DNA from: a virus | IMG/VR virus record: IMGVR_UViG_3300033142_000339 | Span: 1 to 25,219 of that record | Length of the DNA: 25,219 nucleotides | Direction: 5' to 3' (one strand) | Shown here: one piece after another, positions 7,265-24,098 of the stretch | How positions within the stretch are numbered: the first letter of the stretch is position 1 | Layout of the letters: every line of letters starts with the position of its first letter | Program-made: the position numbers and the translations under genes | Notes under the pieces: generated by a model | Databases searched by the model: none | What the model was told of the DNA's origin: nothing | Seen by the model: the letters and a program-made list of their open reading frames with translations, nothing else

Positions 7265-7276
7265 AAAATTAAAATT

Positions 7277-8236: not shown

Positions 8237-8249
8237 AAAAATATAAATT

Positions 8250-9059
8250 ATGGCTTATAAAACAATATCATATAGTGAAACTTCAGAAGGTTTTCCTTCT
8301 TTTTATAGCTTTCAACCGGAATGGATGATAGGTATGAATAACTATTTTTATAGTTTCAAGGAAGGTAATTTATGGAGACATAATTCAGATAGTGTAAATA
8401 GGTGTAGTTTTTATGGTGTAGACAATCAGTTTTCAATAACTAGCGTTTTTAACCAACTACCTATTGTTAGTAAAATATTTAAAACACTTAATCTTGAATC
8501 TTCAACTTCTTTTGCAGCTACGTGTTCAACCGATATAGGTAATGAACAAAATATAGCTATTCAAGCTTCAGAGTTTGTGGAGAAAGAAGGAGCTTACTTT
8601 GCTTATTTAAGATATACTGATATGGCTAACCCTGTAATCACAACTGTTTATCCATTAAGATATGTAAATGGTATAGGTAAAACGGATATAACAATTACAG
8701 GACCTGCCAATGCTTCGGTAGTAGAGTTCCCGGCAGGAGTAGAGGTTAATTCTATATTGAGTGTAGGAGATTCTTTTTATTTTTCTTTAGTAGCAACCGC
8801 TTATGCCACTTTAGAGTTTATGGGAACAGTAACAGCTATTAACAGAGCAACTAGACAAGTAACTGTAGATGCTACCGCGGGTACAGTACCTGTATTAGCG
8901 CCGGGGGTAACAGATGCTTTTTTTGTATATATAAAAAACCGACAAGCCGAGTCTTATGGAGCTTTAGGTCATTATATGAATTTCGTCTTATCATCTGCCT
9001 CTACCTCAGCGGCGGAATTATTTGCAGTAGAATGTGAATATATGCCAAGTAGTCCGTAA
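8250..9059 (+). CDS. Tail-associated protein with SFYSF/PEWMIGMNN motif
   Basis: A 269-aa protein starting MAYKTISYSE. Residues about 14-55 hold SFYSFQPEWMIGMNNYFYSF and, shortly after, NLWRHNSDSVNRCSFYG. As I recall, this block is common in tail proteins of Bacteroidota podoviruses and crAss-like phages, where it can form part of the nozzle/muzzle polypeptide; here it is a separate gene. The middle (STDIGNEQNIAIQASEFVEKEG) and a later beta-barrel-like segment (VNSILSVGDSFYFSL, then FMGTVTAINRATRQVTV) suggest an OB-like or jelly-type beta domain, an inference from strand pattern only. It ends 23 nt before the next gene, and that gap carries a fresh promoter, so it is the last gene of the tail transcription unit unless transcription reads through. 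Confidence 0.6.
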   Translation: MAYKTISYSETSEGFPSFYSFQPEWMIGMNNYFYSFKEGNLWRHNSDSVNRCSFYGVDNQFSITSVFNQLPIVSKIFKTLNLESSTSFAATCSTDIGNEQNIAIQASEFVEKEGAYFAYLRYTDMANPVITTVYPLRYVNGIGKTDITITGPANASVVEFPAGVEVNSILSVGDSFYFSLVATAYATLEFMGTVTAINRATRQVTVDATAGTVPVLAPGVTDAFFVYIKNRQAESYGALGHYMNFVLSSASTSAAELFAVECEYMPSSP

Positions 9060-9067
9060 AAATTTAG

Positions 9068-9075
9068 TATCTTTG
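9068..9075 (+). promoter_or_regulatory. Bacteroidota-type -7 promoter element for internal-virion genes
   Basis: TATCTTTG at 9068-9075 lies in the 23-nt gap between the tail genes and the GNAT-like gene, with the ATG at 9083, 7 nt after the element. No clear -33 TTG is seen at the usual distance. Its position at the exact border between tail genes and the T7 gp13-16-like block suggests that block can be transcribed separately, again with almost no leader. Confidence 0.7.
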
Positions 9076-9082
9076 TAGTCAA

Positions 9083-9493
9083 ATGATATTTAATTTAAGA
9101 CCACTGCACAAAGATGATTACGATAACACCCTTTTAGGGTGGTGGAAAGATTGGGGATGGGAAGCTCCATTAAAGGATTTTTTACCTGATAATGGAAAAG
9201 GTGGACTTATGGTATTGGATAAAGAAACTCCTGTGTGTGCAGGATTTATTTATATGACTAATTCTAAAGTAGCATTAGTGGAATGGGTTATCTCTAATAA
9301 AAATTATCGGAAAAACCCTGAAAGAAAAGAAGCTTTAGAGTTACTTATAAAAAGCCTAACCAATATTTGTAAAGATTTAGGTAGTAATTATACCTATGCT
9401 TTATTAAAACACGACGGCTTAATAGAAACGTATGAGAAAGTTGGTTACACGCAAGGAGATTCTTATACTAAAGAAATGATTAAAAAACTATAA
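9083..9493 (+). CDS. GNAT-fold-like protein, T7 gp13-type internal virion protein
   Basis: A 136-aa protein with the layout of a GNAT acetyltransferase: N-terminal strand (FNLRPLHKDDYDN), central strands (GGLMVLDKETPVCAGFIYMT, then VALVEWVISNKNY), a helix (RKEALELLIKSLTNICKDLG), a strand (YTYALLK) and a terminal helix-strand (LIETYEKVGYTQGDSYTKEM). The usual acetyl-CoA pyrophosphate loop (R/Q-x-x-G-x-G/A) is degenerate (NKNYRKNPERKEA), so catalysis is doubtful. T7 gp13, of almost the same length (138 aa) and the same place before gp14, has a related acetyltransferase-like fold by family knowledge. It ends 1 nt before the next ATG. Either a structural or assembly factor of the internal core or an active N-acetyltransferase is possible; position favours the first. 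Confidence 0.65.
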   Translation: MIFNLRPLHKDDYDNTLLGWWKDWGWEAPLKDFLPDNGKGGLMVLDKETPVCAGFIYMTNSKVALVEWVISNKNYRKNPERKEALELLIKSLTNICKDLGSNYTYALLKHDGLIETYEKVGYTQGDSYTKEMIKKL

Positions 9494-9494
9494 T

Positions 9495-10181
9495 ATGGCA
9501 TTAGCAACAACCGCAGCAGTTTTAACAGCAGCTCAAGTAGCAACTACAATAGGTACTACAGCAGCATCTTTTGCTCAAGCATCTAAACAAAAAAGAGCAC
9601 AACAAAGAGCAGAAAAAGATGCTAAACAAGCTATATTAAAAGCTCGTAAAAGATTAGATGTAAATGTATACGAGAAACTGTCTGTTGATATGGCTGCTTT
9701 TGATAAAGAAAGAGATGCTATGTTGAGCGCCGGCGCACAAAGTTTAGAGGCAGCGAAAGAAGGAGAGGAGAGGGGAGCAGGTACAATAGCGGGGAAAGTT
9801 TTACAAGCACAAAATAAAGCGCAATCAGATGTAACTGATAGGCAGACTAAAAAGTTAGAGGCAATTCAAAGAACTATATTGGATGAAGATAAATCTATAA
9901 TTGGGCAGCAGTCAAACTTAGATTTAGCTGAAGCTCAGGGTGCTCAATTAGCCGCTAGGGATGCAGAAGAAAATCGGAATCAGTCTCTACAACAAGGTAT
10001 GGCAGGAGTAACAAGTTTAGTAGGACAAGCGGCAAGTGCATTACCTTTATATGGTAGTCCATTTAAAGATAAAAGTATGGACCCTGCTGAATTAGCTGCT
10101 TATTATACAGCTATAGGTAACCCTGATATGGCAGCAGTAGTAAATCCACCACCACCTACAAATGACACACCTATACAATAA
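9495..10181 (+). CDS. Internal virion protein, T7 gp14-like
   Basis: A 228-aa protein with an Ala/Thr-rich hydrophobic N-terminal helix (residues about 3-28, LATTAAVLTAAQVATTIGTT), a long charged helical or coiled middle (KQKRAQQRAEKDAKQAILKA through ERGAGTIAGKVLQAQNKAQ), and a second hydrophobic stretch near the end (AGVTSLVGQAASALPLYG). It lacks enzyme motifs. T7 gp14 (196 aa) has the same type of composition and sits between gp13 and gp15; it inserts in the outer membrane during DNA ejection. The neighbours here are a gp13-like gene 1 nt upstream and a gp15-like gene 10 nt downstream. The equivalence is inferred from order, length and hydrophobic pattern, not from similarity. Confidence 0.6.
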   Translation: MALATTAAVLTAAQVATTIGTTAASFAQASKQKRAQQRAEKDAKQAILKARKRLDVNVYEKLSVDMAAFDKERDAMLSAGAQSLEAAKEGEERGAGTIAGKVLQAQNKAQSDVTDRQTKKLEAIQRTILDEDKSIIGQQSNLDLAEAQGAQLAARDAEENRNQSLQQGMAGVTSLVGQAASALPLYGSPFKDKSMDPAELAAYYTAIGNPDMAAVVNPPPPTNDTPIQ

Positions 10182-10191
10182 AATTTAAAGT

Positions 10192-12210
10192 ATGGCAAAA
10201 ACATTTTATAAATACGCGGAAAGAGATGCTGAGAATCGGATAGATTGGTCGGAAGTTGCCAAGAATATGAACGATGTTCTAAGCGCTGAACAGATAGCTC
10301 GTAGAAAGAAAAAACAAAAAATTGAACAACAACAAGAAGAAAGTTTAAAGTATGTAGAGAACGCTCCACAAGGACAACACGTAGGTAAAGATGAGTTTGT
10401 TTTAGATTATGCGGAGAAAGTTATGGAGACTATGCGTATTCAAAATCAATTATTAAAAGAAGGGAAATTAAGTTTAAAAGATTATAATATTCAACGTGCT
10501 AACATAATGAATGGTACGAAAGAGTTCTATGAAGTATCTGAGAATTGGAACACTACTTATGCTGAAGCTAAAAAAATGTTAGATGAGGGTGAATTATCCG
10601 AGTTTTCACAGAGCATATTAATGGATAATGAAAAGATGGGTAATTTTACAAATCACTCTTTATATATTAATCCTGTTGATGGTCAGGTTAGTATAGGTGA
10701 AAGACAACTTACAAACCCTGATGAACCTTACGACCCTCAAACAAACCCTTATACTACGGTAGTTGTTCCTAATGAAAATAGTTTACGACCACTTCAGGAG
10801 TTAAATAATAGGCACGACCAATTACTTAAACCATTTGATTTAGAGGTAAATTTAGATGAATCCGCTCAAATGTTAGCTGATACTTACGAAAAATTAAGAG
10901 AAGATGACCCCACACAAAGTGTAAATGATATCAGAGAAAATGGTAATTATACTGAGGCTGAAACTACTATTATAAACTCTACGGTCGGAGATAAGAATTC
11001 TATGAATGCCGTAAGTATATTGACTGATTCGCAAAATGAGGTTTTAGAGGGATTTGATAATGCCGGAGAAGAGTTTGATTTTACTTCAGACCCTAATGAC
11101 CCTCGTTTATTTAATGCAGATGGGTCAAGAAATCAATCAATGATTTTAAGAGTACAAGACCCTAACCAACCTAATTCAGGAAGGTTAGTTCCTCAGTTAA
11201 CCGACGAGCAGTTAGAGATGGCTAGACAGATAACTAAAGACAGACTTGATGTTATGGTTAATAGAAGTGTTACTACAAAAACTGAGTTCTCCCCATCACA
11301 ATGGGAGTATATGGCAGATAAAAAAAGTGAGCAAGACCAAGCTTTACTTACTAACTTATTAGATATATTTAGTGGTGAAGAGCAAGATATGGAATCTACA
11401 ATGATAGGATTAATGGACCTACCGGGTAACGAATGGATTAAAAATATTACAAGAAATAATGAGGAGATTATAATTAATAAAGGAATGGTTGACGAACAGG
11501 TTATACCTTTATGGACAGCCGGAGTTATAGATGGGACTGAAGGTGGTGAAGAATGGACAGAAGAAAGTTTCTTAAAAGCAGTAGCTTCTAAATTAGGTGG
11601 TTTCGATAATTACGCTATGGCTATGGAGGTGTTTAAAAAACTTAATCCTGAGAGAGTGGTGGGTAGTTTAACTACCTTTGATAACCAAAAAGAGATTGTT
11701 GTTAATAGACAACAACCGGAACCGAAGAAAGAGGCAATAGGTGTTAATTCTATGATGCCTCTTGAGACATCACAGGGTATACTAGCTGCGTTTAACGAGT
11801 TATTTGAAGATTACGATGTTCAGAATGTGACTGTAGGTAGCGCTTTTAATAATTTAGAAAGATTCTATACGGATGAGATTAAAAATTGGGATAAGTACGT
11901 ACCTGCGGTAACTGATTTAATAGAAGAAATTTTCCTAAAAGGTATACAAAATAATAATGTAGGTTTAACTGAAGATAATATAAGGATAATGCCTAATACA
12001 GATGAGAGGGTTATTTACTTAGGATTACAAGATGAAAACGGAAATGTAATTAATGGAACAACTATAGCTCTTGACCTAGAGAGTAAAACATATAGAGGTA
12101 AGAGTTTACAACAGGAATTATCTAATTATATGAATAAGATATTAAAAGTACCTACTCAATCTCAAAACACGAATAATGATGATGATGAGAGTGATGATGC
12201 TCCAATGTAA
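10192..12210 (+). CDS. Large hydrophilic internal virion protein, T7 gp15-like
   Basis: A 672-aa, strongly charged, mostly helical protein with no membrane helix and no enzymatic motif that I can see. The N-terminus (YKYAERDAENRIDWSEVAKN) is followed by a basic helix (ARRKKKQKIEQQQEESLKYV) and long helical segments; the extreme C-terminus is Asn/Asp-rich (TNNDDDESDDAPM). T7 gp15 (747 aa) is likewise a long helical soluble protein that forms part of the periplasmic tube during ejection and lies directly before gp16. Here the next gene, 15 nt downstream after an A-rich leader, is the giant gp16-like protein. The role is inferred from gene order and overall character. Confidence 0.6.
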   Translation: MAKTFYKYAERDAENRIDWSEVAKNMNDVLSAEQIARRKKKQKIEQQQEESLKYVENAPQGQHVGKDEFVLDYAEKVMETMRIQNQLLKEGKLSLKDYNIQRANIMNGTKEFYEVSENWNTTYAEAKKMLDEGELSEFSQSILMDNEKMGNFTNHSLYINPVDGQVSIGERQLTNPDEPYDPQTNPYTTVVVPNENSLRPLQELNNRHDQLLKPFDLEVNLDESAQMLADTYEKLREDDPTQSVNDIRENGNYTEAETTIINSTVGDKNSMNAVSILTDSQNEVLEGFDNAGEEFDFTSDPNDPRLFNADGSRNQSMILRVQDPNQPNSGRLVPQLTDEQLEMARQITKDRLDVMVNRSVTTKTEFSPSQWEYMADKKSEQDQALLTNLLDIFSGEEQDMESTMIGLMDLPGNEWIKNITRNNEEIIINKGMVDEQVIPLWTAGVIDGTEGGEEWTEESFLKAVASKLGGFDNYAMAMEVFKKLNPERVVGSLTTFDNQKEIVVNRQQPEPKKEAIGVNSMMPLETSQGILAAFNELFEDYDVQNVTVGSAFNNLERFYTDEIKNWDKYVPAVTDLIEEIFLKGIQNNNVGLTEDNIRIMPNTDERVIYLGLQDENGNVINGTTIALDLESKTYRGKSLQQELSNYMNKILKVPTQSQNTNNDDDESDDAPM

Positions 12211-12225
12211 AAAAATATATAAAAA

Positions 12226-15200
12226 ATGGACGAAAGAGAACAACGTATATTAGAAGAACATAGTAACTATATTTATAATTGGGTATCTCAATATGATGAG
12301 CAATTTGCTAATAACACCACCTTACAAGGATGGGAGGATAAGATACGTCGTGATGCTGCATATAGAAAAGAACTTTTTGATTGGATAAAAAGAAAAGAAC
12401 AGAAACTTTTACAACAAGCTGAAGACGAAGGGAAACAACCGTGGGAGGTTTTTGAAAAACCTACGGGTACGTTTGAATATTTTGAAGCTGATTTTTTTCC
12501 GGTAGATAAAAAAAAAAACCTCGATTCGGATTCCACTTCTCAAGAAGACATTATGGAATCAGATTCGGCAACTACTTTTTGGGACTCATCAAACGTAGAT
12601 AGTGACTACTACAAACCTCGTTCTGAGGATTATGTTTCTACTTTTGATGAACAAGGGTTTAATGATTGGTGGACTACTAACCCTGAAGTAGTTGCGTGGA
12701 AAGAAGATTATTTAAATAAATATGGAGTAGAACCTACTCTTGATGCTCCTCTAGAAAATGTTCCTGCATACTATGATATAAGAAGTGCTTATGAATTAGG
12801 TATTACCCCTCAGATAATAAACAATGAATATACTTGGTCTAACACTAATAATAGTGGTCAAGTAATAACATCAGCCAACTCTTACACACCGTCTACAGAT
12901 TGGAGACAACAGTTTGAAAAAGATACAGGTACCCCTGCTCCATCGGATATGACCCAAGCTGAGGCGTATGCTACCTATTATGATGCCAAAAATGGTAGGT
13001 ATACTTTAATTGATAGAGAACAGTATCAAGAATTAGATGACCTTAGATTTACCGAGAGTAAAGGGGATTATTCACATTTGAGTGCGGAAGATAGAGCTAA
13101 GTATGGGTTAGTAAATGAAGATGATTTATCTAGAGCTTATTATTCCTATTTTAAAGTAGACCCTTCAACACTTGGGTTGACTGCCCAAGATATGATACAG
13201 GCTCTTAATGAACACGAGCAAACAGAGTGGAAGAACTTAACTAATTTAGAAAATATGACTTGGTTGTTCGACCAACAAGAGGAAGTGGCAGCTCCCTTGT
13301 TAGAGCAAATGTTTAAGGAATACGGTTTTGAAGTAGGGCAAAGGAAGATTGGTAAAGATTATATAGAAATAACAGCCGCTAATGGCGAGAGTATTACCCT
13401 TTCAGTAGATAGAGATGAGGGTGGTTCTTGGTTAGAGGGAGAGACTTGGGTAATGGGAAATACTAATTCCTCAGCACAAAATGCTCAACAGGCTATAAAT
13501 TTTTTTAACAAACATAGACAAACAAGAGTTCCGGGGGAGCAAAAATTTCAAGACTCACAAGATGCTCAGTTTTTGAAAGATTGGAAAAAGCACCAAAGAG
13601 AAGCACAAGATTTTAAAAAACAAGTATCAGAATACGATAAGATAAATGAGGTGGTAAGTAAAACCCCTAGAAGTAAAATGGGTTCTGATGAATATATAGA
13701 GATGAGGGATAAGATTATTCCTATGAGGAATGAGTTAATAACAGAACAAGATAGATTAACACAACAAGACGCAAAGCTTTTAGGTATTCAAGAGGAGTTA
13801 AATTTAAGACCTATTGTCTCCGAAGAATGGGTGCAAGGGGAAGGTGCTTTTATGGATTTCTTTAATGATGTTTATCAAACATTTCAAGTAGGACAAACTA
13901 AAGGTGCTATGCAGGATGATGTGTTAAATGTTATGTGGGAAGGAGCTAATATTACCGAAGGTGAAATGAAAGATTTATTAGGTAATTGGGAAGCTATAAA
14001 AGCTAGTGGTATGCCTGATGAATTAAAGTTGTATAATAAAGAGGTGGCAGAATGTGGAGGAGATTTTGCTTGCGCCGCGAAAGCGTTATATAAATATCCA
14101 TCTGTTGCAACTATGGTTCTTGCGGAAAGTGTAGGTTCATATTTAAATATGACCACTTTAGAAATAGGAGCACAAACCTTGGGGAGTGTGTGGGCAGCCT
14201 CTACCGCGGGAGGTGCAGTAGCAGGGGGACCCGCAGGTGCAGCGGGAGGTGCTGCTCTAGGAGTTCCGGCGGGATTGATGGCGGCTGTAGGTGTGATGAG
14301 TGGTAGTATAGAGGCGACTATGACCTTTATGGAGTTGTTAAACGAAAAGACCGGGGGGGATATGAGTGATGAAGCTATTCGTAAAGTATTAAATGACCCT
14401 GACGCTCTTTCAGATATGAGGCGTGAAGCTATAGGTAGAGGTATGATAATAGGTGGGTTCGATACTCTAACGGCAGGTTTTGGTGGAATGGCGATAAAAT
14501 CATTAGGAGGTAAACCTTTATTAGCTGCTGCGGTAGGTATGGGTATAGAATCAGTAGGTGGAGCAGGGGGAGAGTTCGCTGCTCAAGTAGCCGCAGGTGA
14601 TGGTATTAGCGCGTCTGATGTTTTATTAGAAGGTGTGGCGGGAGTTGCAGGAGCGCCGGTAGATGTAGCAATAGCTTTAGCGGATTCTAGAAAAGGAGGT
14701 GTTGATGATGTGGATTCAGAGATGCAAGATTTTTTCGATGGAGATATGACCGGTGGAACATCTAATAGATTATTACCGGGTACCTATAAATTAAATGGTC
14801 AGCAGGTTAGTCCTGAAGATATGGTAGATTTTGTAACTAAAGGTACACCAAAACAAGTAGCTTCAGCGACTATAGGGATAGATGGTAACCCTAAGTTAAA
14901 AAGGTATACCCAAAATAAAAGAGATAATGCTATACAAAGGTATGAAGTAGATAAAAATATAGACCCTTTGATAAAAAATCCCGAAGACAGAAACGCTCTT
15001 ATTGATTTAGAACTTGAAAGAAAAAAGTTAGAAGGTAATGATACTTATACCGCTAAACTTAGGTTAAGACAAATTGATGGGGATATTAAAAGTATAGTAG
15101 ATAAATATACAAGTAAACCGGAGGGTAAAACAGATATTGAAAGCTTCTTTGAGGAGGACACTAAAAAAGGTACAAGAGGTTCACGTCTTGACCCTTTGCA

Positions 15201-18200
15201 AAGAATAGATAGTGATTCTCCTAATGTTTTACAAAATGATTTAAATAGAACTCAAGACCTTATTAAGTCTTTAGAAGGTCTTAATATTGATTTTGATAAT
15301 CCTAAAACTGATACGGAGAAAAGGCAAGCTGCTATTTATAATGAAGCTAAAGAGTTGGAGACTATTTTTAAATCTCAAATCAAAGGAGCGCCTGAACCTA
15401 CTACTAAACCATCTAGGTTTGTGGCAGGAAAAAGTTCTCCTGTTACTATTAACCCGGAAGGACCGGGTACATTAGGAGTTCTAGTAGTACCGAAGAGGAA
15501 AGATGGTGGTGTGGATGTGCAAATGAAATCCACTAAAGTAGTAAAAGGTAGGTCATTGGGTAGAAATATTTATTTAATAGATGAGAGTTTACAACCGGGT
15601 GAGCGTACTTCTTTTTCAAACCCCGACCCTATTGCTAGACAAAGAACTATAAAAGCAGCCGAGAAAGCTTTTAGGTCTATAAAGAAAATAGCTCCTAATG
15701 TAAACTTGTTAATGTATGAAACGCATAAGGAATATATGGCGGCAGGAAACTCCCGTGATAGTAGTGGAAACTTTAGTCCTTTAACTAATAATATATCTAT
15801 AAGCCTAGAAAAAACAAATCCATCGGTAGTTCCGCACGAAGTAATGCACGGTGTGTTGAAGAACTTATTTCCTGACCTCGCGGGTAAAGAACTTAAAACT
15901 AAAGAATTAGCAGAAGCTATTATAAGAATAGTTAAAAAGAGAAATGTTAAATTAGCTAGCGATTTAAAAAAGGCTAATCCTCAAGAAGCGGGCAACATAC
16001 AAACAGAGCTTAATGAAAACGACTCTTTTATAAAGGAATTACAGGGACACGTAGACAAGTATGAAGGGGTAAAACAAAGTGTTAAAAACGAAGAGTTTGT
16101 GGTTGAAGCAATAGCTTTAATAGCAACTCGATATCCTAAGCTACCTAAAGAAGCAAAAAGTAAAGTTCGTCAATTTATAGAATGGGTTTTAAATAAATTA
16201 GGACTCGGTAAATATATAGATAGAATCTACAAGAAAGCTCCTGATGATGTTATTGTTGATGCCTTAAATAGTATGGCTGACAAAATGAGAACAGGTGAAA
16301 CTATTACTACAGAAGATGTGTCAGAAGCAATGAGTTTATCTCCTGAGCAAGAAGCAAAAAGAAAAGAAGCAAGAGCAGGGGAGAAAGTGGATAGAGAAAG
16401 GTATAGAAACAAGATAGAAGAAATGAAGGAGAAAGCCGGTGGTGTAGAGAATATGACGGCAGATGAGTTAGTTATTTTAGAATCCTTAGAATTAGAACTT
16501 GCTGCACTCGAAAGGGGACAAAGGATTCCGGGTAAAGAATTAGTTGTAGAAGGAGTAGAAACAGATGTAGAGGAAAGTGTTAAAGACTTATTAGGGGTGG
16601 ATGAAGTTGTAAGAAAAAAAACCACTAAAACCCCTACCTACAAAGAACCGGATAGTGTCATTGAAGACACTCCTACTGAAGTTGAAGATACACAAGATAC
16701 ATTTTATAATGAGGAAGAGGATATTAATGTAGTAGATGGAGTGCAGATAGGATTTTTTCATAACACTAAAGATGCAGCAGGAGTTAATATTAAACCAATT
16801 GAAAAGGGGAAAGGAGAAGCCACTCAACTATATAAAGGAGCTTACCACCCTAAGCCGGGTAACCTTACATTTTTCACTCCTTCACGTAAAAAATTCTCTG
16901 ATTTAGGTAGAGGAAAAGGTGCTAGTAAAAAATATAAAGTCAAGCTTAATATTAAGAACCCTTACTTTGTAAAGAAAAATAAAGTATGGTCAGATGCAGA
17001 AGTATTTGAATTAAAAGAGAAAGGATATGATACTATTATAACTCACGTAGATAATTTAACTGACATCTATACTAACAGGGAGAATGAAATGAATATTATC
17101 CCTATAGATAAAAGTATAATTGAAGTAGTGGGAGAGGTTAATCCTCGTGAATCTAGATTTGAGATAAGTGAGAGGAAGATGGATAAAGAATCTAAAGCTG
17201 AGTCTCCGGAAGAACGAAACTCCGAGATAATAGATATAGTTCAAAAAGCAAGAGAGAATAACTTTAGTGATTTAGAAATTACAGATTACCTTGTAAGAAT
17301 TAAAAAATTTAAACCCGCTGAAGTGAAGAAAGCTTTGGAGATTAGTATAGATGAAACGACTTTGTTACCTAAAAGTTTTGCAGAATTAAAGGGAGGTATA
17401 GAGTCCGGGGTTAGATTATTTAAAAGAGTAAATAAATACAAAGACTCTTTAGTAGCACGAAATAAACAAGCTAAAAAGAAATTAAACCAAGAGCAGATTA
17501 CTGATAAAGTAATTCAATATTTAGAGCAGCAACCTGAGTTTACACGAGAGGGAAGTAAAAAAGAATTATCTCCATTACAAGCTAAGATGCAAGTAGAGTT
17601 ACAGTCCACGTTAGGGATGAGACCTACTAGAGATATGGCTAAAGTTCTAAGAGAGTCTAAAAGATTTATTAAGGGGGTAGAGAAAGGAGAGAAGAGCTTA
17701 CAAGCCTTTAAGCAGGACCTCCGAAACTTTATGCGTAAAGCTTTACCGGCAACTACTTACACTAAACCGGAAGTATTAAAAATGGTGGGTAAAATTGAGG
17801 CTGCTAACCGTTCAAGTATTAAGAACATAATGAATGAAGTAATTGATTTTACAAATGAAAAAGTCGCAACCTCTTTAGAAAAAGATATAAACACTAAACT
17901 TAACGCTAAGAATGAGGTTAAGTTAAGTGGTAGAAATAAAGCTACTAAAATAGATGCAGATGCTATAGAGCAAATTAAAATGATTAAGAAAGAAAGAGTG
18001 TCTCAGATAGCTACACCTAAAGAAATTTATGAAACCAATGCTAGATTAGCTGATGAATACAATGAGTTATCCAAAGAAATCAATCCTACTGACGCTCAAA
18101 TAAAAAGAATGGCGGTATTAGAAACAGTTATGAAGCTAAATAACGCGTCTCTAATGGAGAATTCTGACATCAACAAGGTGCAGGAGCTAAGTGATGTAAA

Positions 18201-20700
18201 TAATTCATTAGAGGAGATTATAGTAGGTGGTAGACAAAGGTTAGAAGAAGAGATACAGGCAGCACGAGAAGAGTATGAACGTCAACTTAGTATTGCGTGG
18301 GAGGCTATTACTAAAGAAAAAGTAGATGCCTCTACACAAGAAGGTAAAAATCAGATTCAGAAAACAACCAATTACCTTGTAACTAAAGAAGAAGTAAAGG
18401 CGACTCAAAATGTTTTAAGAAAAATATTAAGAGGTGTAGGTAATAACTTATCAGACATCTTTGTTTCTCATGAAGCGCTTGATGGTTTAATGGATAAAAT
18501 TACTTTAATGCCGGGAGAGTTATTTGGGGGTGCGTTAAAAGATTTAGTATATGAAAGAGTAAATGAAGGAACTCGTTTATATAAAGGTAGAAAGATGGCG
18601 GTTGAGAAATTAATCATAGATAAAGTAAAGGAGTTATATGGTAAAAAGTGGAGAACTAAAATGGTTTCAAACCGAAAGGTTGGTTACAATAAAATATATA
18701 AAGATGGAGACGCAGTTTTAGCAGCTCAAAAAAAATACAATGCGGATAAAACTAGCGCTAATAAAGAAGCTTTAAAGAGAGCAGAGTTAGAAAATAATAT
18801 ACAAGGAGTTACTTACGCAAGTCAAGAGCAGTTGTATTATTTATACAATCAATTTAAAGACCCTGCGCTTCACCCAACTTTTGAAAAAATGTGGGGAAAG
18901 GATTATAAAAAAGTAGCAGAGCAAATTGAAAAAGCTTTAAATCCGGAAGTTAAAAAGTTTGCAGATTGGCAAGTGGATGAATTATTTCCTGCGCTATATC
19001 CGCACTATAACAAAACTTATCGTAAGATTTACAGAACCAATATGCCGCAGAACGAACATTATGCAGGAACACTTTATAGAGAAGGGGTTAAGTCAGAGCC
19101 TGTAGATTTATTATCAGGAGACAATCAATTCTATACAAGTATAGGTGAATCATCTACTATCGCTAGGGTTAAAAACACCAACCCTATACAAAGTATGATA
19201 GGTACAGATGCCTTAATGACTTACGTTACTGATATGGAATACTTTGCTGCAATGGCAGAGCCACTGAGAGATATTGATAAACTATTTACAAATGAAAATG
19301 TAAAGAAAGCTATTATATCTATACACGGAAAAAACACTTACGGCTTAATTAAATCTGCTATTCAAAAATTAGCTAACAGGGGAGTAAGAAGTCACGATAT
19401 GAATAAATTTATAAACGGTATGAACAACGTGTTTATATATTCTCGTTTAGGTTTTAATCCTACTATTACAATTAAACAATTAACATCTATGTTTACCTAT
19501 GCTAATGATATAGGGTTTCGTAATTGGGTTAAGTATGGGTTTAAGAATATGCCGGAGCTAAAAAAATTATGGAAAGAAGTTCAGAGTAATTCAGTTTATT
19601 TGCAAGACCGAAGGTACAATGGTATAATGAGAAATATAGAAAGTTATACAGAGACGCAAATGCAATCTTTAGTTCCAAAAAGAAATAAACAATTTATGGT
19701 TAACTTTTTAATGTGGTTTACAAAATTTGGAGATATGGGAGCTATTATGCTTGGGGGTCTTCCTAATTATTCCTACTACAAAGCACAGTATAAAAAGAAA
19801 AATCCTAGAGCCACCGAACAACAAGCTATTGATTATGCAATTAGAAAATTTGAGAGTGACACTAAGAGAACACAACAGTCTGTAGACTTACAGGATAAAG
19901 ACGTATATCAAACATCTAATCCCCTTGTAAGAGCTATGAATATGTTCCTTACATCCCCTAAAGCTTACTTACGTAAAGAGATTCAGGCTAACCGAAATCT
20001 ATGGAGAATAGCTAAAGCTCGAGATTTTAAAGCCGGGAAAGGAACTCCGAAAGAAGCTATAAGAACCTTTATAATGTATCACGTCTTCTTACCTGTACTG
20101 TTTCAATTTGTAGCTATGGGATTCAAGATAGATGAAGAAGATGATTGGTGGGATTTAGCACGAGCAGCGGTAATAGGAAATCTAAATTCTCTATTTATAA
20201 TAGGAGACTTGTTTAATTATTTAGGAGATTTAGCTACCGGGAAACCGTGGGCAGGAGATAATGATGGAGCTCTACGTATATTAACTATAGCAAGTAAAAT
20301 CACAAAAGATTGGTCAAACTATTTAAACGCTAAGAAACAAGAGACTAAAGATAAGTATTTGAAAGAAATTATATTAGAAACTTTAACCCTAACAGGTTTA
20401 CCTTCTCATCAAATAGATAGGTTTATTGAAAATTATGGTAAGGTAATGACGGGAGATGTAGATAATATGCACGAACTTATATTAAGGTTACTTAATTATA
20501 GCCAATATCAAATTGAAGGAGGAGGTAAAGGGAAGAAAAGTAAAAAGAAAAAATACCCTCGTTCATCAGGAGGTTCTTCATCAAAAGGTGGTGAGTTTGA
20601 TATTGACTTTGGCTTTGATGAAAAGTTTAATTTTGATGAACAGTTTGATTTTGATTTTGACAAACAGTTTGAAGATTTAATAATAGAATTTGATTTTTAA
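12226..20700 (+). CDS. Giant ejected internal virion protein with metallopeptidase and ART-like domains (gp16-like)
   Basis: A 2824-aa protein, about a third of the window. Residues 1-640 are helical and acidic with no recognised domain. Residues about 646-825 are Gly/Ala-rich and hydrophobic, resembling a glycine-zipper membrane zone. H1204-E1205-V-M-H1208 is a zincin motif, with NEEFVVEAIAL at 1288-1298 giving a plausible third ligand (E1290 or E1294). Residues about 1505-1640 resemble ADP-ribosyltransferase domains of polyvalent phage proteins (FFHNT with H1512, LTFFTPS at 1547-1553, GYDTII at 1600-1605, E1621). Long charged helices follow. The C-terminal quarter (IYSRLGFNPTITIKQL; FGDMGAI; NMFLTSPKAYLRKE; hydrophobic FIMYHVFLPVLFQFVAMGF) looks like the conserved module of Bacteroidota phage polyvalent proteins. 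A basic Ser/Gly linker and a Phe-Asp repeat tail (2791-2824) end it. Position matches T7 gp16, the ejected channel protein. No transglycosylase motif is visible. Confidence 0.75.
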   Translation: MDEREQRILEEHSNYIYNWVSQYDEQFANNTTLQGWEDKIRRDAAYRKELFDWIKRKEQKLLQQAEDEGKQPWEVFEKPTGTFEYFEADFFPVDKKKNLDSDSTSQEDIMESDSATTFWDSSNVDSDYYKPRSEDYVSTFDEQGFNDWWTTNPEVVAWKEDYLNKYGVEPTLDAPLENVPAYYDIRSAYELGITPQIINNEYTWSNTNNSGQVITSANSYTPSTDWRQQFEKDTGTPAPSDMTQAEAYATYYDAKNGRYTLIDREQYQELDDLRFTESKGDYSHLSAEDRAKYGLVNEDDLSRAYYSYFKVDPSTLGLTAQDMIQALNEHEQTEWKNLTNLENMTWLFDQQEEVAAPLLEQMFKEYGFEVGQRKIGKDYIEITAANGESITLSVDRDEGGSWLEGETWVMGNTNSSAQNAQQAINFFNKHRQTRVPGEQKFQDSQDAQFLKDWKKHQREAQDFKKQVSEYDKINEVVSKTPRSKMGSDEYIEMRDKIIPMRNELITEQDRLTQQDAKLLGIQEELNLRPIVSEEWVQGEGAFMDFFNDVYQTFQVGQTKGAMQDDVLNVMWEGANITEGEMKDLLGNWEAIKASGMPDELKLYNKEVAECGGDFACAAKALYKYPSVATMVLAESVGSYLNMTTLEIGAQTLGSVWAASTAGGAVAGGPAGAAGGAALGVPAGLMAAVGVMSGSIEATMTFMELLNEKTGGDMSDEAIRKVLNDPDALSDMRREAIGRGMIIGGFDTLTAGFGGMAIKSLGGKPLLAAAVGMGIESVGGAGGEFAAQVAAGDGISASDVLLEGVAGVAGAPVDVAIALADSRKGGVDDVDSEMQDFFDGDMTGGTSNRLLPGTYKLNGQQVSPEDMVDFVTKGTPKQVASATIGIDGNPKLKRYTQNKRDNAIQRYEVDKNIDPLIKNPEDRNALIDLELERKKLEGNDTYTAKLRLRQIDGDIKSIVDKYTSKPEGKTDIESFFEEDTKKGTRGSRLDPLQRIDSDSPNVLQNDLNRTQDLIKSLEGLNIDFDNPKTDTEKRQAAIYNEAKELETIFKSQIKGAPEPTTKPSRFVAGKSSPVTINPEGPGTLGVLVVPKRKDGGVDVQMKSTKVVKGRSLGRNIYLIDESLQPGERTSFSNPDPIARQRTIKAAEKAFRSIKKIAPNVNLLMYETHKEYMAAGNSRDSSGNFSPLTNNISISLEKTNPSVVPHEVMHGVLKNLFPDLAGKELKTKELAEAIIRIVKKRNVKLASDLKKANPQEAGNIQTELNENDSFIKELQGHVDKYEGVKQSVKNEEFVVEAIALIATRYPKLPKEAKSKVRQFIEWVLNKLGLGKYIDRIYKKAPDDVIVDALNSMADKMRTGETITTEDVSEAMSLSPEQEAKRKEARAGEKVDRERYRNKIEEMKEKAGGVENMTADELVILESLELELAALERGQRIPGKELVVEGVETDVEESVKDLLGVDEVVRKKTTKTPTYKEPDSVIEDTPTEVEDTQDTFYNEEEDINVVDGVQIGFFHNTKDAAGVNIKPIEKGKGEATQLYKGAYHPKPGNLTFFTPSRKKFSDLGRGKGASKKYKVKLNIKNPYFVKKNKVWSDAEVFELKEKGYDTIITHVDNLTDIYTNRENEMNIIPIDKSIIEVVGEVNPRESRFEISERKMDKESKAESPEERNSEIIDIVQKARENNFSDLEITDYLVRIKKFKPAEVKKALEISIDETTLLPKSFAELKGGIESGVRLFKRVNKYKDSLVARNKQAKKKLNQEQITDKVIQYLEQQPEFTREGSKKELSPLQAKMQVELQSTLGMRPTRDMAKVLRESKRFIKGVEKGEKSLQAFKQDLRNFMRKALPATTYTKPEVLKMVGKIEAANRSSIKNIMNEVIDFTNEKVATSLEKDINTKLNAKNEVKLSGRNKATKIDADAIEQIKMIKKERVSQIATPKEIYETNARLADEYNELSKEINPTDAQIKRMAVLETVMKLNNASLMENSDINKVQELSDVNNSLEEIIVGGRQRLEEEIQAAREEYERQLSIAWEAITKEKVDASTQEGKNQIQKTTNYLVTKEEVKATQNVLRKILRGVGNNLSDIFVSHEALDGLMDKITLMPGELFGGALKDLVYERVNEGTRLYKGRKMAVEKLIIDKVKELYGKKWRTKMVSNRKVGYNKIYKDGDAVLAAQKKYNADKTSANKEALKRAELENNIQGVTYASQEQLYYLYNQFKDPALHPTFEKMWGKDYKKVAEQIEKALNPEVKKFADWQVDELFPALYPHYNKTYRKIYRTNMPQNEHYAGTLYREGVKSEPVDLLSGDNQFYTSIGESSTIARVKNTNPIQSMIGTDALMTYVTDMEYFAAMAEPLRDIDKLFTNENVKKAIISIHGKNTYGLIKSAIQKLANRGVRSHDMNKFINGMNNVFIYSRLGFNPTITIKQLTSMFTYANDIGFRNWVKYGFKNMPELKKLWKEVQSNSVYLQDRRYNGIMRNIESYTETQMQSLVPKRNKQFMVNFLMWFTKFGDMGAIMLGGLPNYSYYKAQYKKKNPRATEQQAIDYAIRKFESDTKRTQQSVDLQDKDVYQTSNPLVRAMNMFLTSPKAYLRKEIQANRNLWRIAKARDFKAGKGTPKEAIRTFIMYHVFLPVLFQFVAMGFKIDEEDDWWDLARAAVIGNLNSLFIIGDLFNYLGDLATGKPWAGDNDGALRILTIASKITKDWSNYLNAKKQETKDKYLKEIILETLTLTGLPSHQIDRFIENYGKVMTGDVDNMHELILRLLNYSQYQIEGGGKGKKSKKKKYPRSSGGSSSKGGEFDIDFGFDEKFNFDEQFDFDFDKQFEDLIIEFDF
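12508..12518 (+). repeat. 11-nt A homopolymer inside the giant gene
   Basis: Eleven consecutive A bases at codons for Asp-Lys-Lys-Lys-Asn near residue 96. The run is a potential site of polymerase slippage or sequencing error. The zero frame stays open for the rest of the gene, while both shifted frames reach stop codons within about 40 codons, so any slippage would give a truncated N-terminal product. Confidence 0.8.
20596..20697 (+). repeat. Degenerate TTTGAT repeat coding a Phe-Asp tail
   Basis: The last 34 codons of the giant gene are a degenerate repeat of TTTGAT-type units (FDxDF, FDEKFNFDEQFDFDFDKQF, EFDF). The encoded tail is acidic and aromatic, directly after a Lys-rich and Ser/Gly-rich linker. 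The unit length is irregular (3-6 residues). Confidence 0.8.
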
Positions 20701-20710
20701 AATAATAGAT

Positions 20711-20848
20711 ATGCCCTTTAAAAGTAAAGCACAAAGAAAATGGATGTATAAAAATTTCCCTGAGATGGCAAAGAGATGGGAAAAAGAATCGCCCTTACCT
20801 AGCAGACTTCCGGATAGAGTTAGACCGAAAAGACGTGGACGTAGATAA
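20711..20848 (+). CDS. Small basic conserved phage protein (45 aa)
   Basis: ATG at 20711 to TAA at 20846-20848 encodes 45 residues beginning MPFKSKAQRKWMYKNFPEMA, then KRWEKESP and a very basic end (RPKRRGRR). The core pattern SKAQRxWMYxxxPxMAKRWExE is one I recognise from many tiny phage and prophage proteins in diverse hosts, although no function is known to me; the charge suggests nucleic-acid or capsid-surface binding. It lies 10 nt after the giant gene and is the last plus-strand gene. The A-rich leader (AATAATAGAT) is in keeping with the other genes. It is too short for ordinary ORF cut-offs and would be missed, but the conserved pattern makes it convincing. Confidence 0.75.
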   Translation: MPFKSKAQRKWMYKNFPEMAKRWEKESPLPSRLPDRVRPKRRGRR

Positions 20849-20861
20849 ATAATTATTTATC
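20844..20861. terminator. Perfect 18-bp palindrome at convergent gene ends
   Basis: GATAAATAATTATTTATC at 20844-20861 reads identically on both strands. It contains the TAA stop of the plus-strand gene (20846-20848) and the TAA stop of the minus-strand gene (20855-20853). Without a loop it would form a poor hairpin, and it is all A/T except for its outermost pair, so a terminator role is only possible; a protein-binding site or chance are alternatives. Confidence 0.4.
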
Positions 20862-21005
20862 ACCCTCTCTTATAGAACACTGTTCACACATAATAGAACT
20901 ACCTGTAGTCATAAACTTTTCTTTACACCCTACACACTCTCTAACTACGTGCCCATTAGGTCTAATAGATAATGGTTTAGAAAAATCTTTATCTCTTTGG
21001 TACAT
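20853..21005 (-). CDS. Small zinc-ribbon-like protein (50 aa)
   Basis: The minus-strand ATG at 21005-21003 to TAA at 20855-20853 encodes 50 residues. Two Cys pairs, CVGC and CEQC, are separated by 15 residues (the first Cys pair is around residues 24-27, the second around 40-43), the layout of a small zinc ribbon or zinc knuckle. It begins only 1 nt after the stop of the nuclease gene, so it is the last gene of the minus-strand operon. Small zinc-ribbon proteins in phages often bind DNA or RNA polymerase, but nothing here fixes the partner. The tight coupling and the paired CxxC motifs support a real gene despite its size. Confidence 0.65.
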   Translation of the reverse strand: MYQRDKDFSKPLSIRPNGHVVRECVGCKEKFMTTGSSIMCEQCSIREGDK

Positions 21006-21006
21006 A

Positions 21007-21417
21007 TTAATATTTTAAATATTTAAAATCCTTACTCTTTTCAAAGTAGACCATTAGCTCCTCATCATTAACAGCTCCTTCCCTAGGTTTTCGACCTCCC
21101 CATCTTAACTCTCCTTCTACTTGTTTTATTTTAAGATAAATAATCCCATCATCACACGCCCATATAAGAATAGGGTTTAATCTTTTATTAGCAAGCTTAA
21201 CAATTTTTCTTGCAGCCACACAAAGAGGGAAAGCATTAGCTATAGTTCTTAATCTTCCCTTCACCTCAGCGTAGGCAATTAATTTATTATCAGCACCAAA
21301 CACTCTATAATCAATATCATTAGGTCCTAACTTTTTATAACTGCCACCAAATAAGTTTACAAATTTAGTTATAGCCTTTTTCTCTCTTTCTAAATCTTTA
21401 GTAGTTTCAAATCTCAT
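21007..21417 (-). CDS. PD-(D/E)XK-type nuclease-like protein
   Basis: A 136-aa protein. The core shows a helix with conserved Glu (LEREKKAITKFVNLFGG), then DIDYRVF (D34, D36) and IAYAEVKGR (E51, K53), i.e. the D...E-x-K signature of restriction-fold endonucleases, followed by a strand-turn-strand ILIWACDDGIIYLKI. The start is chosen at the ATG at 21417-21415 because it overlaps the metallophosphoesterase stop as ATGA, the usual translational coupling; an upstream in-frame ATG at 21468 would add 17 residues and a 55-nt overlap and is less likely. It could be a Holliday-junction resolvase-type or host-DNA-degrading nuclease. The surrounding genes (helicases, VRR-NUC, phosphoesterase) point to DNA replication or recombination. 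Activity is inferred from the motif only. Confidence 0.6.
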   Translation of the reverse strand: MRFETTKDLEREKKAITKFVNLFGGSYKKLGPNDIDYRVFGADNKLIAYAEVKGRLRTIANAFPLCVAARKIVKLANKRLNPILIWACDDGIIYLKIKQVEGELRWGGRKPREGAVNDEELMVYFEKSKDFKYLKY

Positions 21418-22130
21418 AACTCCATTAAACAATTTATAGCGGTGTGTCCTCCTAAAATCACCCCACAACCTACCGCTTGTTTTTTAAAGTGTTTAGCGTA
21501 AGCTGCGGCATAGGACGTACTATCTATACCGCAACCTACTTGCATTCCAAATATTCTAAAATTTCTACCCACCATCCATTCAGTATAACATTGGGTATGT
21601 ATATGTCCCTGAACGGTAGACATCATATCATTTTTTGCTTTTGTGCGCGCGGTCCCACCTTCTCCATGCACGTACTGAACACCGTCATAAACTATTCTTT
21701 CAGTCCAATTCCAATCTACACCCAACACTTCATTATAACTTTTTATCCATTGCTTTGGAACATCTGAATCGATTGCCCTCCTCATTATAATACGGTCATG
21801 ATTTCCAATTAGTATATCTGCTACAGGAAACGCTTCGTACCATTCTTGAACAATTGAAATAGCGTGCTCTAACTCTTCCCCACCACCCATTCCATTAGGG
21901 TCTGTATTATGAAATGAACTGTAGTGGTTATCTAAAATATCTCCTATGAAAATTACTTGATTACAATTGTGTTTTGCATAAACTTCTTTACAAAACTCTA
22001 AGTAACCATTAAGTACAAAGGGTGCGTGAATATCTCCGATAACAAGAATACGCTTTTCTTTTTTAGTAATGTAGTCATACGCAACTTTCGTGTTGCCGTG
22101 AATACGGGGTCTAAAACTATTATATTTCAT
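21414..22130 (-). CDS. Calcineurin-like metallophosphoesterase
   Basis: A 238-aa protein with the complete metallophosphoesterase motif series: GDIHAP (D33, H35), GDILDNH (D64), GNHD (N110, H111), HGEGG (H155) and QGHIHT (H176, H178). These residues bind two metal ions and cleave phosphoesters. A Gly-rich insertion (NGMGGGEELEHA) lies between motifs II and III. The fold is shared by DNA nucleases of the Mre11/SbcD type, cyclic-nucleotide phosphodiesterases and protein phosphatases, so the substrate is open; being among helicases and nucleases, a role on DNA or nucleotides is most likely. The start overlaps the preceding small gene by 11 nt and the end overlaps the next gene by 4 nt. Confidence 0.88.
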   Translation of the reverse strand: MKYNSFRPRIHGNTKVAYDYITKKEKRILVIGDIHAPFVLNGYLEFCKEVYAKHNCNQVIFIGDILDNHYSSFHNTDPNGMGGGEELEHAISIVQEWYEAFPVADILIGNHDRIIMRRAIDSDVPKQWIKSYNEVLGVDWNWTERIVYDGVQYVHGEGGTARTKAKNDMMSTVQGHIHTQCYTEWMVGRNFRIFGMQVGCGIDSTSYAAAYAKHFKKQAVGCGVILGGHTAINCLMEL

Positions 22131-22314
22131 CTTCTAAAGATTCGTGTACGTCTTTTAGACGCTTGATTAAATTAGTAATTTCTTTTTTTGCATCATCATA
22201 TTCTGAGTCAATAAAGTGTTCGTATAAATTATTGGTAGAATTATGAATCTCCGACATTAAATAATTAATGTGGTCTAACCTTCTTTGTTTGACTGCTGAT
22301 ATTTTTGCGGTCAT
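22120..22314 (-). CDS. Small helical protein of unknown function
   Basis: A 64-aa, highly charged, fully helical protein (KQRRLDHINYLMSEIHNSTN, then DDAKKEITNLIKRLKDVHES) with a heptad-like spacing of hydrophobic residues that suggests a coiled coil or helical hairpin. The ATG is preceded by an A-rich leader (AAACAAATAAA), typical for this genome. It overlaps the metallophosphoesterase gene by 11 nt and follows the 107-aa gene by 17 nt. I do not recognise a family; the operon position suggests a small accessory of the replication genes. Confidence 0.6.
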   Translation of the reverse strand: MTAKISAVKQRRLDHINYLMSEIHNSTNNLYEHFIDSEYDDAKKEITNLIKRLKDVHESLEDEI

Positions 22315-22331
22315 TTTATTTGTTTAAATTA

Positions 22332-22655
22332 TTATTCATTGATATTTATAGTTTGATTCTGATTTATACAATCTAAATATTCGTCGCAACTTATTTCTTC
22401 GACACCTAAATAGAGTGGTATTTCTTCGTGTTGTTTTAAAAATTCGAGCTTATAAAAAAAAGGTTTAGAAGATTTAACCACCCCGCATATAGCCTGTGAC
22501 CAACCATCTAACTCCGGTAGCTTGTCTGTATAATATTCTATATGGGTAATAATATCATTCACTACATAATGAGGACAGCTTGCAAGCTCCACCACGAACC
22601 ACTCGTCAAAGTCGTAAGACTTTCTAACCTTTATGTACTTCTGTTCTAAATCCAT
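22332..22655 (-). CDS. Hypothetical replication-operon protein (107 aa)
   Basis: A 107-aa acidic protein (WFVVELASCPHYVVNDIITH; LPELDGWSQAICGVVKSSKP; EISCDEYLDCINQNQ) with three Cys in its second half and no recognised domain. The start at 22655 overlaps the VRR-NUC gene by 32 nt, longer than other overlaps here, but the ATG is preceded by a clear A-run leader (AATTAAAAAAAT), which supports it. Function is unknown; it is likely co-expressed with the nuclease upstream of it. Confidence 0.55.
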   Translation of the reverse strand: MDLEQKYIKVRKSYDFDEWFVVELASCPHYVVNDIITHIEYYTDKLPELDGWSQAICGVVKSSKPFFYKLEFLKQHEEIPLYLGVEEISCDEYLDCINQNQTININE

Positions 22656-22863
22656 ATTTTTTTAATTCCTTTAATCTATATTCTTGCAACTTAGAGACCC
22701 TTCCTTTACTTGTTTTTATTTCGCTAAATAAAACTTCTGCATTGGGAGGGATTGCAATTAAATCCGGTATTCCATTCTTATTTGTTTTAATTAACTTAAT
22801 AACATAGTAGCCTTCTTGCTCTAGTTCTTTAATTCTTTTTGCTTGAATTTGTTGCTCCGTCAT
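22624..22863 (-). CDS. VRR-NUC domain nuclease
   Basis: A 79-aa protein that is essentially one VRR-NUC (virus-type replication-repair nuclease) domain: an N-terminal helix (QQIQAKRIKELEQEGYYVIK), then NKNGIPDLIAIPP (catalytic Asp), LFSEIKTSKGRVSKLQEYRL (Glu-x-Lys plus the Gln of the conserved helix) and a final strand (YGFRTEVHKG). Single-domain VRR-NUC proteins are common in phages, often beside SNF2 helicases and primases as here, and may resolve branched DNA. The ATG at 22863 is chosen; a GTG at 22866 directly before it is an alternative, giving an overlap with the helicase stop (TAGTG). The promoter element at 22876-22869 lies 5 nt before this ATG. Confidence 0.85.
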   Translation of the reverse strand: MTEQQIQAKRIKELEQEGYYVIKLIKTNKNGIPDLIAIPPNAEVLFSEIKTSKGRVSKLQEYRLKELKKYGFRTEVHKG

Positions 22864-22865
22864 CA

Positions 22866-24098
22866 CTACAAAGATAATAAATCACTTTTAAAGTGCTTGA
22901 TTGTATAATCTTTCTTCTTTATAACTGCTTTATAAATCTTATTTTCTATTCCCTTATCTGCAAAAACCCAATATACTTTATTAGTCTCTCTGTCTTTTGT
23001 TGTCATCCTATCACGAGACTGCCAATAACTTGTTGCGCTAAAATCTATATTGTAATAAACCAAACAATCCGCCTCTTTTAAAGAGATTCCCTCTCGCCCA
23101 CTTACGATTTGTAGTGCTATATTTTTATGTGTGTCTTTAAAGACACTTAGTTCGGTTGTCAAATTTTCTTTAAAAATTGTTTTTAATATATTTAATTCTT
23201 CTTTAAATTTATAAAATATACCTATTTTTTTTCCGTCAAAATATTTTTTTATAAACAACGCTTTGTTCATATCAAGTATCATAGAGTTCCCACTTTCAAA
23301 TTTAATCGTACCTGAATATATCTGATGAAGTTTAATCATTAGCTTAACCGGTGTGTCCGCAAGTATCACCTCTTCCTTTCCTTCTATTACTAAATCTTTC
23401 TGTAATCTTTTAGCTAAAGTGTAGGTAGATTCTTGCATTTTTACTAACAAAACTTTTTCATTTGTCTTAGTTTTAAAACCTGCTTGGCTTTGAGAAAAGT
23501 TAATAGTGTATGGTTTTAACATAGATAAAATCCTCTCTTGCCCTCTCGAATAATCTCTTATATGTATTCCATTAATTTTCTTTTCTACTATATTAACATA
23601 CTCTCTAGCGAATTTGTAAAAACTTTTATACTCCCTAAATGGATTAGTAGGGATGCCGTATACTTGATGGTATAATTGACTGTAGGATTCGGGGGTAGGA
23701 GTTCCGGATAATAAGATAACATAAGGATTGTGCTTTAGAATTAATTCCTTAATTTTTTTAGCGCGATTATTTGGCTTGGGAAAAGCGCCTAAACTATGTG
23801 CTTCATCACACACTATCATATCCCATTTTAAATCCGGAACTTTGTGAACAGATTCATAATTAATAACTATTAGTTTATATTTAGGAGAGAGTAATTTATA
23901 GTCCTGCTCAATAGATGTAATAGCTTTTTTCTTAGTAACAAACAAAACATTTTTTTGAAATAAAGTTTTAGCTATCCCTAAACTTGTAAGAGTTTTACCG
24001 GTTCTTACCTCCATAGCTAGATATAAAAATCTATGCTTCAATAAAATTGGTATTGATTTATCTATGATATCACTTTGATAATCTCTAAAATTCACCAT
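22866..24098 (-). CDS. SNF2-type DEAH superfamily 2 helicase
   Basis: A 410-aa protein with the SF2 helicase motif set: FRDYQ (Q-motif-like, residues 4-8), MEVRTGKT (motif I, Walker A, 29-36), NYESVHK (motif Ib region), CDEAHSLG (motif II, DEAH at 98-101), LLSGTPTPE (motif III, 129-137), then in the second RecA domain QIVSGREGISL (motif V) and WQSRDRM (motif VI). It is a minimal SNF2/Rad54-like ATPase without accessory domains. In phages such proteins act in DNA replication or recombination, moving on duplex DNA. It overlaps the upstream 73-aa gene by 7 nt (ATGGTGA) and its end carries a promoter for the next gene. Walker A lacks the usual first Gly (EVRTGKT), a variation common in phage SNF2 proteins. 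Confidence 0.87.
   Translation of the reverse strand: MVNFRDYQSDIIDKSIPILLKHRFLYLAMEVRTGKTLTSLGIAKTLFQKNVLFVTKKKAITSIEQDYKLLSPKYKLIVINYESVHKVPDLKWDMIVCDEAHSLGAFPKPNNRAKKIKELILKHNPYVILLSGTPTPESYSQLYHQVYGIPTNPFREYKSFYKFAREYVNIVEKKINGIHIRDYSRGQERILSMLKPYTINFSQSQAGFKTKTNEKVLLVKMQESTYTLAKRLQKDLVIEGKEEVILADTPVKLMIKLHQIYSGTIKFESGNSMILDMNKALFIKKYFDGKKIGIFYKFKEELNILKTIFKENLTTELSVFKDTHKNIALQIVSGREGISLKEADCLVYYNIDFSATSYWQSRDRMTTKDRETNKVYWVFADKGIENKIYKAVIKKKDYTIKHFKSDLLSL
22869..22876 (-). promoter_or_regulatory. Bacteroidota-type -7 promoter inside the helicase gene end
   Basis: On the minus strand, positions 22876 down to 22869 read TATCTTTG, followed by TAGTG and the VRR-NUC ATG at 22863. The element overlaps the last codons of the helicase (Leu-Ser-Leu-stop). 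Its 5-nt distance to the ATG equals that of the 421 promoter. An inverted repeat CACTTT-T-AAAGTG lies just upstream at 22883-22895. It would allow VRR-NUC and later genes to be expressed apart from the helicase and primase. Confidence 0.55.

Follow-up and report, generated by a model that had tools for sequence, protein, structure and literature searches.

A giant polyvalent-type protein of a crass-like phage, a probable virion cargo, joins a predicted zincin metallopeptidase to an ART-PolyVal-like segment in a variable payload slot

The stretch of DNA analysed here (the window), an IMG/VR fragment of 25,219 bases, carries at 12226–20700 (+) a gene for a 2824-aa giant protein which, judged by its predicted domains, belongs to the class of polyvalent proteins described by Iyer et al. 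(2017, PMC5512222), in a crass-like lineage. Our overall reading is that it is probably a crass-like phage cargo protein of polyvalent type, which would deliver an ADP-ribosyltransferase (ART) payload released by a zincin metallopeptidase. A zincin-type domain and an ART-like segment stand in one reading frame, the zincin, the C-terminal domain and the gene position are conserved, and the payload slot is swapped in relatives.

The ORF given in the preliminary description of this DNA is intact from its ATG start, with zero internal stops. A second contig of the same virus (IMGVR_UViG_3300033155_000751) encodes an identical protein (100% across residues 1–2058). A weakly conserved N-terminal region (residues 1–533; 12226–13824, +), delimited by the relatives' coverage, is followed by a Gly/Ala-rich middle module (residues 534–970; 13825–15135, +), which resembles phrog_32588 (E 4.9e-34) and contains two hydrophobic segments (residues 671–691 and 799–819). 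A transmembrane segment upstream of the zincin was considered as a conserved feature and dropped, being seen in only 31 of 79 relatives. The whole protein gave no useful match in Pfam and NCBIfam, and PDB sequence searches with single domains, the ART profile, or the C-domain profile gave no match.

Because the window matches the crassvirus muzzle profiles PF25731 and PF25729, and both matching genes also match phicrAss001 gp44 directly, the phage is classed from its sequence as a crass-like podovirus and not as T7-like. In Pfam, the N-terminal part of the muzzle protein (PF25731 crAss_MUZ, E 1.2e-10) was found at 2402–7264 (+), and the C-terminal part (PF25729 crAss_MUZ_C, E 8.3e-10) in a separate gene at 8250–9059 (+). 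A 319-aa gene lies between the two; the split is common to many relatives, and a single-ORF muzzle occurs in Gundel_1, elemo, and some others. The giant gene had been likened to T7 gene 16, a parallel that does not hold: its neighbours are crassvirus muzzle genes, whose profile matches rule out a T7-like context, and Pfam scans of the giant protein detected no gp16 transglycosylase or channel domain.

In the window, the muzzle parts are followed by small genes, a 672-aa protein (10192–12210, +), the 2824-aa protein, and a strand switch; the order in phicrAss001 is muzzle gp44, gp45, gp46, gp47 (2341 aa), and a strand switch. The giant gene occupies the same genomic position as gp47. Upstream of it lie the muzzle, virion-structural PHROGs, and a cargo-like gene, that is, it is encoded amid virion structural genes. 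The 672-aa protein, a candidate companion cargo, is co-conserved with the giant gene, its homologue standing directly before that gene in 61 of the 76 relatives with enough upstream DNA. Downstream coding is mainly on the opposite strand in 63/67 relatives. Near the start of the minus-strand block of the window, 21414–22130 (−) encodes a calcineurin-like metallophosphoesterase (phrog_221), and the minus-strand block of elemo also encodes one.

In phicrAss001, gp45, gp46, gp47, gp49, and gp50 were found in virions by mass spectrometry, and ejection of the cargo was proposed to precede that of the DNA (Bayfield et al. 2023, PMC10172136). HMMER detected no sequence homology of the window protein to phicrAss001 gp45–gp50, and therefore the cargo role is inferred from synteny and class. 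By this analogy the giant protein is in all likelihood a virion cargo, and the earlier suggestion that its position fits an ejected cargo protein gains support from the phicrAss001-like order kept among relatives. The window gene and gp47 are alike in standing after the muzzle and before the strand switch and in encoding giant proteins, gp47 being a virion cargo. Unlike gp47, which is annotated as RNA polymerase (RNAP)-associated, the window protein has no detected RNAP domain. Its identity as an RNAP subunit was considered and rejected, the DFDFD at 2808 lying inside a low-complexity tail. phicrAss001 gp47 (16120–23145 in its record) has HEAFH at residues 2157–2161, near its C-terminus; hhalign of this region against the zincin family gave 15%, and the motif may possibly mark a zincin in gp47, whose annotation is that of an RNAP subunit.

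The zincin domain of the window protein was delimited at residues 1136–1372 (15631–16341, +) by the family profile, site conservation, and a structural model. Its predicted zinc-binding and catalytic motif HEVMH (residues 1204–1208; 15835–15849, +), already pointed out in the preliminary description, is the sole HExxH of the protein and is conserved in relatives; when the whole protein was shuffled with its composition kept, 1.75% of the shuffles contained an HExxH. In the zincin alignment of 49 relatives dereplicated at 80% identity, H1204, E1205, H1208, Y1279, E1289, and E1290 were invariant (49/49). The combination of HExxH with a downstream Glu ligand, a feature of zincin metallopeptidases, is therein present throughout, E1289-E1290 (16090–16095, +) being the candidate third zinc ligand in the relatives' alignment. 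Because these catalytic-site residues are invariant in all 49 dereplicated relatives, we do not regard HEVMH as a chance occurrence.

An AlphaFold2 model of the domain built from 41 sequences had a pLDDT of 85, and its order of helix, three strands, HExxH helix, and later helices fits the secondary-structure order of zincins. Foldseek matches of the model in the PDB were weak (E 0.33 or worse), the top rows including clostridial collagenase, selecase/jannalysin, and IrrE, and the VIA rows were dominated by long helices. The fold comparison that had been proposed for this region thus gave a fitting order of secondary structure, with Foldseek matches that stayed weak. A Pfam scan of family members gave weak matches to DUF5700 (a zinc peptidase), M78, DUF6782, Tox-MPTase4, SprT, and Astacin, together with non-peptidase families, and the PDB sequences best matched by the zincin profile were two IrrE proteins, aligned weakly across the HExxH region (E 0.037 at best). 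With the invariant site as the main ground, residues 1136–1372 almost certainly form a zincin-type domain; the 49/49 site, the model, and the weak zinc-peptidase and IrrE matches agree with the earlier reading of the motif as that of a protease.

Downstream of the zincin, profile and model delimited an ART-like segment at residues 1497–1640 (16714–17145, +). Its sole Pfam match in isolation was PF18760 (ART-PolyVal; E 0.045), and we call it ART-PolyVal-like because the score of 14.9 bits falls under the gathering cut-off of 31.2. hhalign of the window segment against 23 phage ART-PolyVal sequences gave 93%, compared with at most 2.5% for 60 shuffles and less than 1.5% for parts of the protein outside the ART region; the aligned core consisted of KYKVKLNIKNPY and ELKEKGYDTII. 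By hand alignment, FFHNT corresponds to [YF]HG[ST], TFFTP to [YF]F[ST], and EMNII to E-[YI]-[VI]-A-F, giving H1512, F1549, and E1621 as the candidate H-[Y/F]-E triad. MAFFT with full-length ART relatives placed motif I elsewhere, and the model was built from rows cut at the second motif. Motif I of the window has HN in place of HG, and the second triad position is F, not Y, F also being common across the ART-PolyVal family.

The model of the ART segment was modest (pLDDT 60), with a best-supported core of about 80–90 and the first ~50 residues mostly below 50. Nearly all of its best 50 Foldseek rows in the PDB were PARP/ART, each weak (E 0.12 or worse). In VIA, the best Z of 4.5 was to tankyrase/PARP, from model residue 16–17 onward (H1512 is model residue 16), and another row was a chain of the cyanophage A4 pre-ejectosome (Z 4.0, rmsd 3.3, 97 aligned). 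The top BFVD match was an 83% identical protein; matches named ART-PolyVal-like included the uncultured phages cr130_1 and cr116_1, and rank 8 was a Roseobacter phage vRNAP. The segment alone gave weak matches against phages (best E 2) and, against viral contigs, the same virus only. It is intact and identical in the second contig of this virus. Residues ~1497–1640 very probably adopt an ART fold, as a divergent relative of ART-PolyVal (PF18760). The hhalign result with its controls and the individually weak but PARP/ART-dominated matches to the modest model uphold both the ART domain that had been predicted at about 1505–1640 and the outcome of the fold search suggested for it, the core now running from FFHNT (1510–1514) to NEMNII (1620–1625).

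Relatives are encoded by two isolates, Gundel_1 and elemo, and by about 80 IMG/VR contigs; in most of them, sequence comparison shows a zincin and a C-terminal domain together with a payload slot that varies. The zincin alignment search found 80 viral contigs and the C-domain alignment search 13 loci, and by profile 87 ORFs contain the zincin and 42 the C domain, most of these being giant proteins of about 1600–4100 aa. Counted per residue, the relatives' coverage of the window protein was 85 at the zincin (1136–1372), a count biased by a set gathered via the zincin, zero at ~1501–1600, and 32–38 from ~1670 to 2765. Because coverage drops to zero at ~1501–1600, the ART region is the part not common to relatives.

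The C-terminal domain (residues ~1668–2765; 17227–20520, +) is 38–47% identical to that of the best relatives. This domain of about 1,100 aa is strongly conserved in ~38 relatives and belongs to no known family, with no match at useful significance in Pfam, PHROGs, or PDB. Other family members have different C-terminal groups, with mostly weak profile links among groups. In one relative, L078, the C domain spans two overlapping reading frames (5800–13722 and 13703–15049), which suggests a frameshift or an assembly error. The window protein ends in an acidic/aromatic low-complexity FD-repeat tail (residues 2790–2824; 20593–20697, +). Ends of the giant proteins are of low complexity, and those of several phages are built from short motifs in repeat. 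These differ by phage (NPM, D[NA]xIFK, KGLF, SRFTGPKI, STVPKLNK, RFGAS, and FD[IFE], from a comparison of window 20593–20697 with the ORF ends of L006, L038, L055, L070, L022, L040, L069, and L083) and are possible packaging or docking tags; a tail motif common to neighbour genes, as a packaging signal, was looked for and not found.

The payload slot swaps among relatives. A Pfam scan of 47 payload regions, window included, detected nine with LPD23 and four with ART-PolyVal; a few had RadC, DUF6782, M78, GNAT, methyltransferase, NlpC/P60, or other domains. The four relatives with ART-PolyVal above cut-off in the same slot are L089, L009, L069, and L047, and in each of them the ART sits in a segment that is absent or replaced in a close relative. 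L009 and L029 share ~74% on both flanks, and the ART of L009 lies in an extra 287 aa (1709–1995) where L029 has nothing; the same pattern of an ART in a replaced or missing segment was seen in L089 vs L087, L069 vs L043, and L047 vs L060. Over 87 related pairs, mean coverage was 99% for the C domain, 66% for the N-terminal region, and 46% for the payload, a descriptive comparison of non-independent pairs in which C-domain membership was required and some ORFs are cut by contig ends.

Polyvalent proteins are large proteins of phages and conjugative elements with predicted injection, in which the zincin MPTase is the commonest domain and ART is among the payloads (Iyer et al. 2017, PMC5512222). 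The giant protein resembles them in its very large size and in joining unrelated enzymatic domains (zincin and ART in 2824 aa). Its family does so in repertoire domains (MPTase; ART-PolyVal, weak in the window and above the Pfam threshold in four homologues; LPD23, present in nine of 47 members), in domain shuffling, and in being encoded among virion structural genes. It differs from other polyvalent proteins in its crass-like podovirus lineage, its fixed frame of zincin, slot, and C domain, and a C-terminal domain with no match of useful significance in Pfam, PHROGs, or PDB. The preliminary description had proposed an undescribed system, which goes too far: giant virion-borne proteins with zincin and ART are already covered by the polyvalent proteins (PMC5512222), and 'ART-PolyVal-like' already names uncultured-phage proteins in BFVD/UniProt. 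We found no description of this giant-protein family in the literature on crass-like phages, of which our coverage is incomplete.

N4-like vRNAP polyvalent proteins of Roseovarius/Roseobacter podoviruses combine MPTase and ART in one giant injected protein (PMC5512222); the window protein shares zincin and ART with them and differs in having no detected RNAP domain. T4 Alt is a virion-borne ART injected with the DNA (PMC9503650). Alt is a separate head protein, whereas the window ART is fused to a protease in a crass-like cargo gene and matches PF18760, not Alt. Among isolates, Gundel1_74 of Tenacibaculum phage Gundel_1 is homologous over the C domain and has a weak GNAT match, and the giant protein of Flavobacterium phage elemo is homologous over the zincin and has a DUF3293 match. 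ART-PolyVal was not detected in either record, and both homologues carry the record label 'structural protein' (a label only).

For the zincin, processing before or after delivery, or attack on host proteins, has been proposed (Iyer et al. 2017, PMC5512222). A zincin acting in assembly would cut the precursor before or in the head, so that the parts enter the cell already separate. P1 DdrB is cited as cleaved before packaging (Iyer et al., PMC5512222), and no other part of the family is shared as widely as the zincin, while payloads change, a pattern that a housekeeping enzyme for processing would show; on the other side, N4 virion RNAP with its MPTase domain is packaged uncut (PMC5512222), and we consider cleavage in assembly unlikely, though less so than the other alternatives below. 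That the zincin is instead an effector against a host protein is improbable: Iyer et al. list it as possible (PMC5512222), toxin MPTases exist, and Tox-MPTase4 was among the weak matches, but turnover like that of the payload slot would be expected of an effector, and the zincin is kept between the same modules in ~85 relatives (a zincin-found and hence biased set).

The substitutions of HN for HG and F for Y could possibly reduce ART activity. They would also suit a dead remnant that has retained the fold and lost catalysis, as would the lack of close homologues other than in this virus itself and in a single BFVD protein of 83% identity. Yet H1512 and E1621 are at the expected positions by hand alignment, F commonly occupies the second position in other family members, and the segment is intact and identical in the second contig, which makes a dead ART rather doubtful. 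A purely structural channel or ejection protein, whose enzyme-like folds serve assembly only, would suit the gene position, the hydrophobic segments, and the large conserved C domain; it is very unlikely, since the zinc-site residues are invariant and payloads are exchanged among unrelated enzyme families.

In the preferred reading of a delivered, zincin-released ART payload, the giant protein would be expressed together with the muzzle and cargo genes and packaged into the virion. By analogy with phicrAss001, it would exit partly unfolded via the tail, either along with the DNA or before it. In the cell, the zincin (1136–1372) would, as its likeliest role, cut the polypeptide and detach the payload from both terminal modules; we give such release about an even chance. 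The ART payload (~1497–1640) would then ADP-ribosylate a host macromolecule using NAD+, as T4 Alt does to RNA polymerase, the target here being conjectural. Activity of the ART on a host target seems somewhat more probable than release by the zincin.

More tentatively, and with less confidence than in any of these steps, the giant cargo protein may be, across a widespread clade of crass-like podoviruses, a fixed delivery rack: an N-terminal module, an invariant releasing protease, one exchangeable cassette slot, and a large C-terminal domain with phage-specific repeats as possible packaging tags. In that case the slot would hold a collection of early effectors directed against the host or its defences, and the region from zincin to C domain would list proteins delivered to the host before any phage gene expression. 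If right, this reading would link polyvalent proteins with the cargo model of crassviruses, where few cargo functions other than RNA polymerase are known. The cassette boundaries mark the stretch to express for single-payload tests.
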